38,230 bases of DNA, taken from positions 1-38,230 of the forward strand of contig MICN01000063.1 of NCBI GenBank assembly GCA_001829875.1. Reading direction: 5' to 3'. The notes beneath the pieces are model-generated. The model was not told the DNA's origin, ran no database searches, and saw only the letters and a program-made list of their open reading frames with translations. This stretch comes from Syntrophus sp. GWC2_56_31 (lineage in GTDB: Bacteria; Desulfobacterota; Syntrophia; Syntrophales; UBA5619). Shown piece by piece: positions 12,545 through 18,745 of the stretch (positions are counted from its first letter, which is position 1; every line of letters starts with the position of its first letter). A program made the position numbers and the translations under genes.

Positions 12545-14638
12545 ATGACGAACAAGCTTGAAAATGTCAGAAACATAGGAATCAGCGCCCACATCGACTC
12601 GGGGAAAACCACACTAACCGAGCGGATACTCTTTTATACCAAGCGCATTCACGCCATCCACGACGTCAAGGGAAAAGACGGCGTCGGCGCCACGATGGAT
12701 TCCATGGAGTTAGAGAGGGAGCGCGGCATCACCATCGCTTCGGCAGCCACATTCTGCGAATGGCAGGAACATGAAATCAACATCATCGACACCCCCGGGC
12801 ATGTGGATTTTACCATCGAAGTCGAACGGTCCCTCCGGGTGCTGGACGGCGCCGTTCTTGTCCTCTGTTCTGTCGGCGGTGTCCAGTCGCAATCCATTAC
12901 CGTCGATCTGCAGATGAAACGCTATAAGGTCCCCTGCATCGCATTCATCAACAAATGCGATCGGAACGGCGCCGATCCCTACCGTGTGATCGGTCAGCTT
13001 CGCACCAAATTGGGTCACAACGCCGTCGCCCTGCAGATCCCGATCGGGCTGGAAACAGACTTCAACGGTGTAATCGATCTTCTGACCATGAAGGCAGTCT
13101 ATTTCGATGGAGACAATGGCGAGCGTGTCCGGATCGAGGATATTCCGCCGGATTTGCTGGCAGAGGCTCGCAAGAAACGCGAAGAGATGATCGAAGCCGC
13201 AACGATGTTTTCCGACGAATTGATGGAGATCGTCCTGGCGGAGAAGGCGATTCCGGATTCCCTGATCATCGAGGCGATTCGCCGAGGTACCCTGGAGAGG
13301 AAGCTGACACCCGTTTTGGTCGGATCGGCATATAAGAACAAGGGCGTCCAGCCGCTTTTGGATGCGGTGACCCGCTATCTTCCCTGTCCTTCGGATGTTG
13401 AAAACACCGCGCTTGACATCGATAACAACGAGGCCAGAATTGTCCTTGAGGCCGATCCCTCAAAACCGATCGCGGCCCTTGCCTTTAAACTGGAAGACGG
13501 TCATTACGGTCAACTCACTTATGTGCGAGTGTATCAGGGAACATTGGCTAAAGGATCTGTGATCGTCAACTCCAGAACCGGAAAAAAAGTGAAGGTGGGA
13601 CGCGTGGTCCGCATGCATGCCGATCAGATGGAGGATATCGAGGCGATATCCTCCGGTTATATAGGGGCGCTGTTTGGAATCGAGTGCGCCTCAGGCGACA
13701 CCTTTGTTTCCCCTGGTAGAAATCTGACCATGACCTCGATGTTCGTCCCGGAACCGGTCATCTCGCTCGCCATCTTCCCCAAGGACAACAAGTCGCAGAT
13801 CAACATGTCCAAAGCCCTGAACCGTTTCACGAAGGAGGACCCCACGTTCCGCACCCATGTGGATGATGAGACAAGTGAAACGATCATAGAGGGGATGGGT
13901 GAGCTCCATCTGGAAATCTATGTCGAACGGATGAAACGCGAATACAGCGCAGAAGTGGAGACGGGGAAGCCACGGGTAGCCTATCGAGAAACAATCACGC
14001 AGAAGGCGGAATTCAACTATACCCATAAGAAACAAACCGGAGGGTCCGGTCAATACGGGCGCGTGGCCGGCTATATGGAACCGATCACAGAAGAACCGGA
14101 GGACTTCCTGTTCATTAACGAGGTCAGAGGGGGATCCATTCCCACCCAATTTATCGCCGCCTGTGAAAAGGGCTTCCGGCAGAGCATTGTCAAGGGTCCT
14201 AAAATGGAGTTTCCGGTGACCGGGGTAAAGGTCGTCATCAACGACGGCGCTTCGCATGCCGTGGATTCCTCCGATATGGCTTTTCAGGCTGCCGCACGAG
14301 GGGCATTTCGTGAGGGATACGCCAAGGCCAAGCCGGTGGTCCATGAACCGATCATGAAGGTGGTAGTAGAGTCTCCGACCGAATTTCAGGGGTCGGTGAT
14401 GGGACTTCTCAATCAGCGACGGGGGATGATCGTCGGGGCACAGGATGAAGGAGCGATGACCGTCGTCGAAGCACAAGTTCCCCTGGGCGAGATGTTCGGT
14501 TTTTCAACGGTATTGAGATCCGCCACCCAGGGAAAGGCCCAGTACACCATGGAATTTGCCCTTTACAGGCAGGTGCCGCAGTCGATCGCGGAGCAGATTG
14601 CGGAAGAGGTGGCGTTGAGGAAAAGAAGCGCAGCATGA
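12545..14638 (+). CDS. fusA: Translation elongation factor G, spd/mitochondrial EFG1-like
   Basis: [89 protein letters not shown]; all EF-G domains present. Confidence 0.94.
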
Positions 14639-14712
14639 GCTCCGGGGCATCCGTCCTTGTCATTCCCTGGCCTGCCGGGCGGACAATCAAACTCAAAGAC
14701 AGGAATATCGAT

Positions 14713-15414
14713 ATGATAAAACAAGAATTGATTCTTCGTAATCCGCTTGGGTATCTGGGTTTTGAAACGGAAGACATCCTCCCCGCCGGAAAATTCGGCG
14801 CCGTTCTTGCCCATGCGGGTGTCGGAAAAACGGCACTTCTGGTCCAACTCGCCCTGAACAGTATGCTCAGGAGCAGGAACGTTCTCCATGTCAGCCTGCA
14901 AGACCCGGTAAACAAAGTCACCCTCTGGTATGGGGAACTCTTCAATCATCTCGCAAGTCAATTTGAAGGGGCACAGATCAACAAACTCTGGGATGCCATT
15001 TTGCCCCATCGGTTCATCATGACTTTCCGTGTAGAGAGCTTCACTGTTCCAAAGCTCGAAGAAAGGCTTAACGACATCACCGAGCAGGGTATATTCAAAC
15101 CGGAGATGATCATCGTCGACGGGTTTCACTTTGATTCTCCCATGCGGCCCGCCTTGGTCGCCCTGAAGACACTTGCAGGGAAGAACGGAATGCATGTCTG
15201 GTTTACCGTCCATACACACAGTAATGAAAAACCGGGCCTGGACGGACTTCCCCCATCATTTCTGCCGCTGGCCGACCTGTTTGATCTCATTTTGGAGCTG
15301 CAGACCGAACATGCGAATGTCCATATCAAACTGATCAGGGGTCTTTCTTCCGCCTCTCCTACGGCCAATTTGCTTCTCGATCCGTCGACCATGCTGATCA
15401 AAAATCCTTCATAA
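14713..15414 (+). CDS. P-loop ATPase (RecA/KaiC-like), function unknown
   Basis: Walker A AHAGVGKTALLVQLA, Walker B-like MIIVDGFHF. Start uncertain: 14713 (AGGA at 8-nt spacing) or 14635 (ATGA overlap with EF-G). Confidence 0.75.
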   Translation: MIKQELILRNPLGYLGFETEDILPAGKFGAVLAHAGVGKTALLVQLALNSMLRSRNVLHVSLQDPVNKVTLWYGELFNHLASQFEGAQINKLWDAILPHRFIMTFRVESFTVPKLEERLNDITEQGIFKPEMIIVDGFHFDSPMRPALVALKTLAGKNGMHVWFTVHTHSNEKPGLDGLPPSFLPLADLFDLILELQTEHANVHIKLIRGLSSASPTANLLLDPSTMLIKNPS

Positions 15415-16782: not shown

Positions 16783-16950
16783 ACATGATCAATAGCACAT
16801 ATTCACCGGCCTGACAATCATCACGGCAACTCCAGTCATAAACATTATGTAATACATTATATTGTACTGTATATCATTATGTTTTATAGATTATATTTAA
16901 TAATGTATAAGTTATTCCAACAAACATGTATTAGACAGTATAAGCCACTC

Positions 16951-16979
16951 TTGACAATTGTATTTATACAGTATATACA
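16951..16979 (+). promoter_or_regulatory. Sigma-70-type promoter of the HTH-cyclase gene
   Basis: TTGACA (16951-16956), 17-nt spacer, TATACA (16974-16979). Confidence 0.7.
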
Positions 16980-17040: not shown

Positions 17041-18150
17041 ATGGGGGAAAAAGGGGAAAAGCAGATCAGCAGTGTTGAAATTATAAATAAATCAGGTGTA
17101 TCGCGTGCAACACTCAACAATTACATCAAAATGGGAATTCTTCCGCACCCCCTCGTGAAAAGACCGGAGGATAGTACGATCAGCAAGGCAAAACAGATAG
17201 GATATTTCCCTCATTCGGTCCTGGACACATTAGACAGAGTCAGTCAATATAAGAAAGAGGGACGCCGGATGTTGGAGATATCCCGGCTTTTGGCAGAGAC
17301 AGCAATCGGCCCATCCGAAGGCGTTCAATATAACGAACCGCCCAATGATACAGGGATGACGTTTTTTCAGAAGCCAGTATCTGATTATGGAAATGAGAGC
17401 GAAGAATTATTTCCTTTCTATGAAACACACGCCGGAGTTGTCGCTTCAGACCCGGTAACAAAGAGAGATATCAGAGTACAGCTCAAACAAGGTTCTCTAA
17501 ACCTTTTTCATTTTTCGGTTCTTGTCGCGGAGATACAAAACACAACAAAAATGTGCGCAGAGCTGCCCCCGGATGAGTATATCGGCCTGATGAGGCAAAT
17601 CTGGAAATTGATGACCCTTTTGTTCAAGAAATACTTTGGCGTTTATGGGAGACACCCCGGTAATGGAATCGTATTTTATTTTCTCAAAGATCGCGGTTCG
17701 TCTTATCTCATGGATGCCGTCGTCTGTGCGCTCGAATTGAGAGAAACAATAAAAATGATGAATCAGAAAAGGAAAACGAACAAAGAATACTTTGACGAGC
17801 TTTATTTGAACATTGGAATCAGCGAAGGCCTTGAGTTTATAGGATCAATCCCTGCTGCGCCGGCGATAGAATACATATCTTTGGGTGATGCTTTCAATAC
17901 GGCCCGCCGACTGTCCGATTTGGCTCACTCGGGATCCGTTTGGACGACAAAAAATCTTTTGAATCTTTTGGACGAAAAGAATAGAAGAAAAATTCGTTAC
18001 GGCATCTACCGAAGAGAACAGAATCGAGATGTCCTGATCGAAAATATTTTTTCAAGGGTGATGGATCTGGTCCCGCAGGACGATCCCAAATTCAGTAACT
18101 ATATGGATATCTGGACCTTGCCTGTGACGGAGATCCAAAATCTCCGCTGA
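17041..18150 (+). CDS. MerR-like HTH protein fused to a nucleotide-cyclase-homology domain
   Basis: N-term ISSVEIINKSGVSRATLNNYIKMGILPHPLV (HTH and wing); C-term FSVLVAEIQNTTKM...GNGIVFYF...YISLGDAFNTARRLSDLAHSGSVWTT (class III cyclase fold). ATG 17041 lies downstream of the promoter; the track start at 16879 is upstream of it. Confidence 0.75.
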   Translation: MGEKGEKQISSVEIINKSGVSRATLNNYIKMGILPHPLVKRPEDSTISKAKQIGYFPHSVLDTLDRVSQYKKEGRRMLEISRLLAETAIGPSEGVQYNEPPNDTGMTFFQKPVSDYGNESEELFPFYETHAGVVASDPVTKRDIRVQLKQGSLNLFHFSVLVAEIQNTTKMCAELPPDEYIGLMRQIWKLMTLLFKKYFGVYGRHPGNGIVFYFLKDRGSSYLMDAVVCALELRETIKMMNQKRKTNKEYFDELYLNIGISEGLEFIGSIPAAPAIEYISLGDAFNTARRLSDLAHSGSVWTTKNLLNLLDEKNRRKIRYGIYRREQNRDVLIENIFSRVMDLVPQDDPKFSNYMDIWTLPVTEIQNLR

Positions 18151-18217
18151 ACCTTTTCATTTTTCCCGATTGTTTTAGAACGGGTAAGAGAATAGTGCTT
18201 GAAGCAAAAGGTGTTTA

Positions 18218-18745
18218 TTGCTAACATGCTTCCTTATAATGACTCACTCGAATGACCATAATGAGATTTTGATCGATAGGGAAGGCATCTGGTATTTCTG
18301 CGGTGCTGAAATGAAACGGATAGATATCGTTCAACATTTCTACAAATATCTGAAAAGAGATCTCGATGGTCATTATTCGATTGAGATAGAAGATGACCGC
18401 TGTAGCGTTCGGGTTGAAGATACACCCTATGTCATCAGGAGTATTGTCGTTGGTTTTTCCCCCAACTCCGGTCAGCCCACCATTGATTTATCGCTTAATG
18501 ATGGTAGCAATGAGAGGCTGAGCCTTGACGCCCCCCTCCGGATCGGTGAAGATAATGTATTGTATTGCATGGTGAAAAATGGCGAATACGAGGCGCGATT
18601 TTCCAGGCCCGCCTATTATCAGTTTTGTGAACATATCGATTATGATTCTCGGAATGGCGAATACCGACTTGTTCTGGACCACATTCCATACCCTTTGGTG
18701 TTGACGAAGGGATGCAAACGGCAAGACTCGCCCGATGTGCGGTGA
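18218..18745 (+). CDS. DUF1285-like protein
   Basis: ILIDREGIWYFCGAEMKRIDIVQHFYKYLKRDLDGHYSIEIED...VRVEDTPYV resembles DUF1285. TTG start with AAGG at 6-nt spacing; alternative ATG 18239 lacks an SD. Confidence 0.65.
   Translation: MLTCFLIMTHSNDHNEILIDREGIWYFCGAEMKRIDIVQHFYKYLKRDLDGHYSIEIEDDRCSVRVEDTPYVIRSIVVGFSPNSGQPTIDLSLNDGSNERLSLDAPLRIGEDNVLYCMVKNGEYEARFSRPAYYQFCEHIDYDSRNGEYRLVLDHIPYPLVLTKGCKRQDSPDVR

Follow-up and report, generated by a model that had tools for sequence, protein, structure and literature searches.

A PAS-less MerR-type Regulator with a Substituted Class III Cyclase Domain and a Putative Autoregulatory Operator in Syntrophus sp. GWC2_56_31

The Regulator Gene and its Surroundings

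The window, i.e., the whole stretch of 38,230 nucleotides analysed here (Syntrophus sp. GWC2_56_31, assembly GCA_001829875.1, contig MICN01000063.1, positions 1 to 38,230), contains an open reading frame at 17041-18150 of the plus strand that encodes a 369-aa regulator. A divergently oriented radical SAM gene shares its intergenic region, and the genes DUF1285, guaB and dnaE start 88 bp past its stop codon, with no terminator predicted on that strand. In many related loci, dtd (D-aminoacyl-tRNA deacylase) separates the regulator from DUF1285 or guaB; the window has no dtd at this place (18150-18239). Further upstream, an AAA_25 (RecA-like) ATPase gene (14635-15414) starts at the extreme end of an EF-G-like gene (12545-14638). 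A scan of the whole window with Rfam returned no family at gathering score, and no NCBIfam family matched.

The open frame of the regulator extends 5' beyond position 17041. The start at 17041 is nevertheless supported, since the 5' extension holds the operators described below and relatives start nearby. The coding region is organized as follows:

17041..18150, plus strand: short (PAS-less) HTH-cyclase regulator (open reading frame, Pfam, relatives, AlphaFold2 model)
17062..17304, plus strand: MerR-like winged HTH, residues ~8-88, with recognition stretch SRATLNNYIKMGILP (relatives and model)
17308..17463, plus strand: low-confidence linker, residues 90-141, where the ~200-aa PAS-like domain of relatives sits (relatives and models)
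17464..18147, plus strand: class III cyclase-fold domain and family-specific C-terminal segment, residues 142-369 (Pfam, structure alignment, AlphaFold2, Foldseek)
17530..17532, plus strand: codon 164, GAG, encoding Glu in place of the first metal Asp (3r5g and family alignment, codon read)
17662..17664, plus strand: codon 208, AAT, encoding Asn in place of the second metal Asp (3r5g and family alignment, codon read)

A MerR-type Winged HTH and a Class III Fold Deprived of its Metal-binding Aspartates

The protein was modelled with AlphaFold2 from an alignment of 41 relatives, with a pLDDT of 82 overall and above 85 across most of residues 150-369. The HTH (residues 8-88) and the cyclase fold (142-369) are confidently modelled and the linker (90-141) is of low confidence. 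Assignment of the N-terminal domain as a MerR-type winged HTH rests on relatives and on the model: the HTH of relatives passes the MerR_1 cut-off of Pfam (E down to 2.8e-7), and the modelled domain displays the helix-helix-wing-helix-helix order. The window HTH itself, which is somewhat diverged, matches Pfam MerR weakly and below the cut-off (E 0.077, residues 16-37). Its recognition stretch SRATLNNYIKMGILP, almost invariant across the family, is unchanged. The long coiled-coil dimerisation helix that follows the HTH of MerR-type proteins is absent from the model, in which residues 90-141 form no helix.

Pfam Guanylate_cyc matches residues 159-314 (31.4 bits against a cut-off of 21.9), and the domain aligns with solved class III cyclases such as CyaB of Pseudomonas aeruginosa (3r5g, E 1.2e-5). 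Comparison of the modelled domain with 3r5g using Foldseek gave an E-value of 1.3e-11 and a TM-score of 0.83 by target length. An earlier note on this DNA had proposed a MerR-like HTH fused to a cyclase-homology domain with Glu and Asn at the metal sites, and named structure prediction and superposition as its check; the class III fold predicted here and the 3r5g alignment bear out the fusion and the substitutions. In the 3r5g alignment, E164 falls on the first metal Asp (SDIRGFT of CyaB against AEIQNTT) and N208 on the second (VGD of CyaB against PGN), two columns occupied by D in all 75 metal-intact relatives. The transition-state residues Asn286 and Arg290 are kept. The purine-specifying pair is absent, with R204 and I279 at positions where relatives mostly carry K and T or V.

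Substitution of either metal Asp usually abolishes the activity of class III cyclases. On alignment grounds, the window protein is thus a predicted class III fold lacking both metal Asp, whose cyclase activity has presumably been lost or nearly so. The earlier view of a catalytically weak or dead cyclase within a one-component DNA-binding regulator is in line with the 3r5g alignment, the family columns and the Foldseek comparison. Activity through an unusual E/N metal site instead of D/D seems very unlikely. Glu is able to ligate metal, and could still do so at the first site, and the transition-state Asn and Arg are retained; however, Asn is a poor metal ligand at the second site, the metal-intact members carry D at both columns without exception, and the purine Lys and Thr are altered as well.

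The combination of lost metal Asp with conserved Asn286 and Arg290 is reminiscent of the C2-like halves of mammalian cyclases, in which metals are lost and Asn and Arg kept. The window protein could accordingly be pictured as the non-catalytic half of a heterodimer, providing Asn and Arg to a partner cyclase that provides the metal Asp. Such an arrangement is exceedingly improbable: a single family member was found in the window genome (78% complete), the three other cyclase domains of this genome sit in much larger proteins, and the purine residues expected of a C2-like half are altered.

A Family of HTH-PAS-Cyclase Proteins

Relatives were collected from surrounding genomes and one species-level genome collection (80 of 289 related loci kept). 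The resulting HTH-PAS-cyclase family spans Desulfobacterota and Betaproteobacteria, and a plasmid search returned only generic cyclase-domain matches. Most members are longer than the window protein (about 490-590 aa) and carry a domain of roughly 200 aa between the HTH and the cyclase. In the structure model of a long relative, this insert adopts a PAS-like strand and helix order, and the insert of one long relative matches MLTR_LBD (PF17765, E 3.6e-4), which makes a PAS-type domain likely, although not certain. The catalytic relatives carry an extra PAS-like domain ahead of the cyclase, and this PAS-like domain is missing from the window protein and 13 other members. The window protein otherwise fits the family, with SRATLNNYI in its HTH, the family C-terminal segment after the cyclase and the common synteny.

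In the taxonomic order of the window organism, many long and short members occupy one place, flanked by a divergent B12-binding radical SAM gene and, downstream, by dtd, DUF1285, guaB and dnaE. These long and short members are orthologues and not separate paralogues. Presence of the gene is patchy (26 of the 155 genomes of this order). One syntenic orthologue is cut to an HTH and a cyclase stub of 163 aa (genome G024, loci L019/L043; L019:1495-1983) and retains the operator. In five desulfobacterial loci (L066, L067, L088, L108, and L110), a gene coding for a PAS-HD-GYP-like protein (357-372 aa) lies directly downstream of a long HTH-PAS-cyclase gene; in L110, an operator-like site is found between the two genes.

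No description of a MerR-type HTH-PAS-cyclase family was found in the open-access literature, to which the search was confined, and the family is apparently undescribed.

A Palindromic Operator around the Promoter of the Regulator Gene

The first sign of a regulatory site was the word TAGACAG, over-represented in the upstream regions of the family (59 of 82, 1.7 expected). It belongs to a 13-bp palindrome with consensus TTAKACWGTMTAA. When one mismatch is allowed, the 25.6 kb of upstream DNA contain 106 sites and the remaining 869 kb from the same loci only 15, a ~240-fold enrichment. The spacing between sites peaks at 32-35 bp, and their preferred offsets relative to TTGACA are -19 to -22 and +12/+13. 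Pairs of operators ~33 bp apart therefore often bracket the -35 box, one member lying in the spacer up to the -10 box. The window follows this arrangement (the palindromic sites have no assigned strand):

16862..16874: weaker operator-like site TTGTACTGTATAT, two mismatches, nearer to the divergent gene (consensus match)
16898..16910: weaker operator-like site TAATAATGTATAA, two mismatches, 33 bp upstream of the exact site (consensus match)
16931..16943: operator palindrome TTAGACAGTATAA, exact match to the consensus, just upstream of the -35 box (consensus match)
16951..16956, plus strand: -35 box TTGACA, between the two operators (offset analysis and sequence read)
16964..16976: operator palindrome TTATACAGTATAT, one mismatch, 33 bp from the exact site, within the spacer and extending into the candidate -10 box (consensus match)
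16974..16979, plus strand: candidate -10 box TATACA after a 17-bp spacer, sharing bases with the second operator (by eye, not tool-predicted)

The -10 box is poorly defined across the family. A generic promoter scan did not flag the window promoter because it requires T at the last base of the -10 box.

A census of exact sites was conducted in the 155 genomes of the window's order, i.e., 26 bearing the gene and 129 devoid of it. Gene-bearing genomes harbor 24 exact TTAKACWGTMTAA sites, distributed over 17 of the 26, of which 22 lie within ~250 bp upstream of the gene, two inside it and none elsewhere; the exact pattern is absent from the other nine. Among the gene-less genomes, nine carry a stray exact site. 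Of the members from the window's order that lack metal Asp or consist of the HTH only, 13 were tested and every one retains an operator with at most one mismatch, against an expectation of ~0.4% for each from shuffled regions. The two intragenic palindromes, in two related genes (L047 of G003 and L049/L171 of G154), lie within the HTH coding region, ~200 bp into the gene and in similar codons, and probably reflect a coincidence of the protein code, or else an intragenic site. Some betaproteobacterial members have no site near the consensus. No relevant paper on the operator string was found in the open-access literature.

The co-occurrence of gene and operator suggests that the HTH of the window protein binds TTAKACWGTMTAA, and the position of the sites around the -35 box suggests repression as the outcome, although binding could lead to activation at some promoters. 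The earlier proposal of a regulator acting on its own promoter gains support from the enrichment of the operator and from its restriction to the regulator's own gene.

Loss of the PAS Domain and Decay of the Cyclase

Within a set of 89 proteins, both metal Asp are kept in 73 of the 75 PAS-containing members, and at least one is lost in 12 of the 14 PAS-less ones (12/2 and 2/73; Fisher p 3e-11, uncorrected for relatedness). Parsimony infers ~8 changes of the PAS state and ~4 of the metal state. Independent pairs on well-supported branches (n = 5) comprise ~3 in the expected direction and none in the opposite one, too few for significance. A strict rule by which PAS loss causes metal loss is weakened by two long, PAS-containing members that are degenerate at the metal Asp (L167 of G129 and L168 of G146) and by two short ones with D/D intact (L087 and L097). 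Given these four exceptions, there is no strict coupling between loss of the PAS domain and loss of catalysis.

The window protein belongs to a well-supported clade of seven proteins, of which four are long and intact and two others are, like it, short and damaged. Its branch length is 0.92, compared with about 0.1-0.2 for its long clade mates. Pairwise identity among these long forms reaches 78-91% in the cyclase core and 60-72% in the HTH, and falls to 50-57% and 54-58%, respectively, when the window protein is compared with them. Constraint has thus been relaxed mainly on the cyclase. The nucleotide pocket likewise erodes in short members: of the 12 PAS-less proteins in which a metal Asp is gone, four retain the transition-state Asn, seven the Arg and five the purine Lys.

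This erosion bears on a conserved role as nucleotide sensor, as advanced in the earlier note, in which the cyclase-fold domain would bind ATP, GTP or a cyclic nucleotide without turnover and thereby switch DNA binding. The predicted fold of the domain is intact, the window protein retains Asn286 and Arg290, and a like proposal has been made for Mclx2 and Mclx3 of Mycobacterium tuberculosis (PMC4452763). Nonetheless, the pocket decays in the other short members, positions K204 and T279 are altered in the window protein itself, and the syntenic relative reduced to an HTH and a cyclase stub still has its operator. A conserved sensor role is not borne out by these data, and we regard a sensor function of the window protein as unlikely.

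Alternatively, the whole gene could be on its way to loss, without present function. The long branch, the patchy distribution in the order and the existence of a truncated, HTH-only form are all compatible with this scenario. However, the 369-codon frame remains intact at ~50% identity to relatives, its recognition stretch has not changed, an exact operator is present at the proper spacing, and there is a candidate Shine-Dalgarno stretch, which renders decay of the entire gene rather improbable.

Neighboring Genes and Extent of the Regulon

In the window genome, the operator is restricted to the regulator gene: beyond it, two sites with one mismatch were found against six reversed-control matches, and none is convincing. 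In 13 further genomes, the extra sites inspected fall in or beside unrelated genes, save one before an adjacent PAS-HD-GYP-like gene. No wider regulon is therefore claimed.

The proximity of guaB had suggested a link to GTP synthesis. This link is not supported: the operator does not recur at other places in the genome, guaB is not a neighbor of the betaproteobacterial members or of most others in the family, and relatives devoid of the regulator gene still carry dtd-DUF1285-guaB. Feedback on nucleotide synthesis through guaB was hence rejected as a general explanation, and the closeness of guaB is a matter of local synteny; the betaproteobacterial members have different neighbor genes. Nevertheless, considering the intergenic region shared with the radical SAM gene and the 88-bp gap without predicted terminator that precedes DUF1285-guaB-dnaE, these neighbors could be co-regulated with the regulator in the window's order.

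Relation to Known Regulators and Cyclases

Several known systems resemble the window protein in part. Among class III cyclases, which include photoactivated cyclases, CyaB and Cya2, its fold is nearest to P. aeruginosa CyaB and to Cya2. PAS-linked class III cyclases recall the long relatives, in which the PAS-like domain directly precedes the cyclase, but differ from the window protein, which has an N-terminal HTH, no PAS domain and no metal Asp. The ligand-binding PAS domain of MmyB-like regulators (MLTR_LBD) is comparable to the insert of the long relatives in element order and, for one of them, in sequence, and is absent from the window protein; MmyB-like regulators, moreover, carry an HTH of another type.

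With the MerR family, including LitR and CarH, the window protein shares an N-terminal winged HTH of MerR topology, a C-terminal input domain and a promoter operator. Its C-terminal part, unlike that of LitR/CarH, is a cyclase fold, and the operator of its family, TTAKACWGTMTAA, occurs in pairs 33 bp apart, not as TGTACA-N12-TGTACA. MerR activators work on a stretched spacer of 19-20 bp; in the window, the spacer would be 17 bp if the candidate -10 box, a box poorly defined across the family, is the one in use. The LitR-type PmlR2 acts as a repressor with sites over the -35 box and downstream of the start (PMC9758184).

The Mclx proteins of M. tuberculosis (Rv0386, Rv1358 and Rv2488c) combine a cyclase homology domain with a LuxR HTH. 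A transition-state Asn is missing from both Mclx2 and Mclx3, and Mclx2 is in addition devoid of a metal residue; these proteins have been proposed to act as regulators that respond to ATP or cAMP (PMC4452763). They resemble the window protein in uniting a class III cyclase domain and an HTH in one chain, with catalytic residues missing in two of the three, and differ from it by the opposite domain order, the LuxR-type HTH, the AAA/NB-ARC domain in between, the absence of PAS and the lineage.

Concluding Remarks

The window protein is best described as a predicted one-component regulator whose input domain is a presumed pseudo-enzyme. We consider it probable that it acts as an autorepressor derived from HTH-PAS-cyclase ancestors, now devoid of the PAS domain and of either metal Asp, with a cyclase that is inactive or nearly so. 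According to this model, the MerR-like winged HTH, presumably as a dimer, would bind TTAKACWGTMTAA, and occupancy of the two copies that flank the -35 box, one of them over the candidate -10 box, would block RNA polymerase. In the ancestors, the same HTH would have been joined to a sensor of PAS type and to a class III cyclase capable of catalysis, so that autorepression in the long forms would control the amount of a PAS-regulated cyclase. The window form would be what remains of this circuit, its cyclase-fold domain having at most a role in dimerisation or in the response to a ligand.

More tentatively, the family may consist of bifunctional cyclase-regulators, each of which has essentially no target besides its own gene and reaches it through a private operator, conserved across Desulfobacterota and Betaproteobacteria. 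Sensor and enzyme would have been shed repeatedly, giving self-repressors in which the pseudo-cyclase would constitute a new ligand-responsive regulator domain.

Fusions of class III cyclases to DNA-binding domains are rare, and the targets of few of them are known. Here, comparative genomics supplies a concrete predicted operator, essentially confined to the regulator's own gene. Moreover, natural "enzyme-on" and "enzyme-off" orthologues at one chromosomal place make a possible coupling of cyclase and DNA binding directly testable. The predicted DNA switch outlives the enzyme, as most family members keep the predicted operator even after decay of their cyclase.
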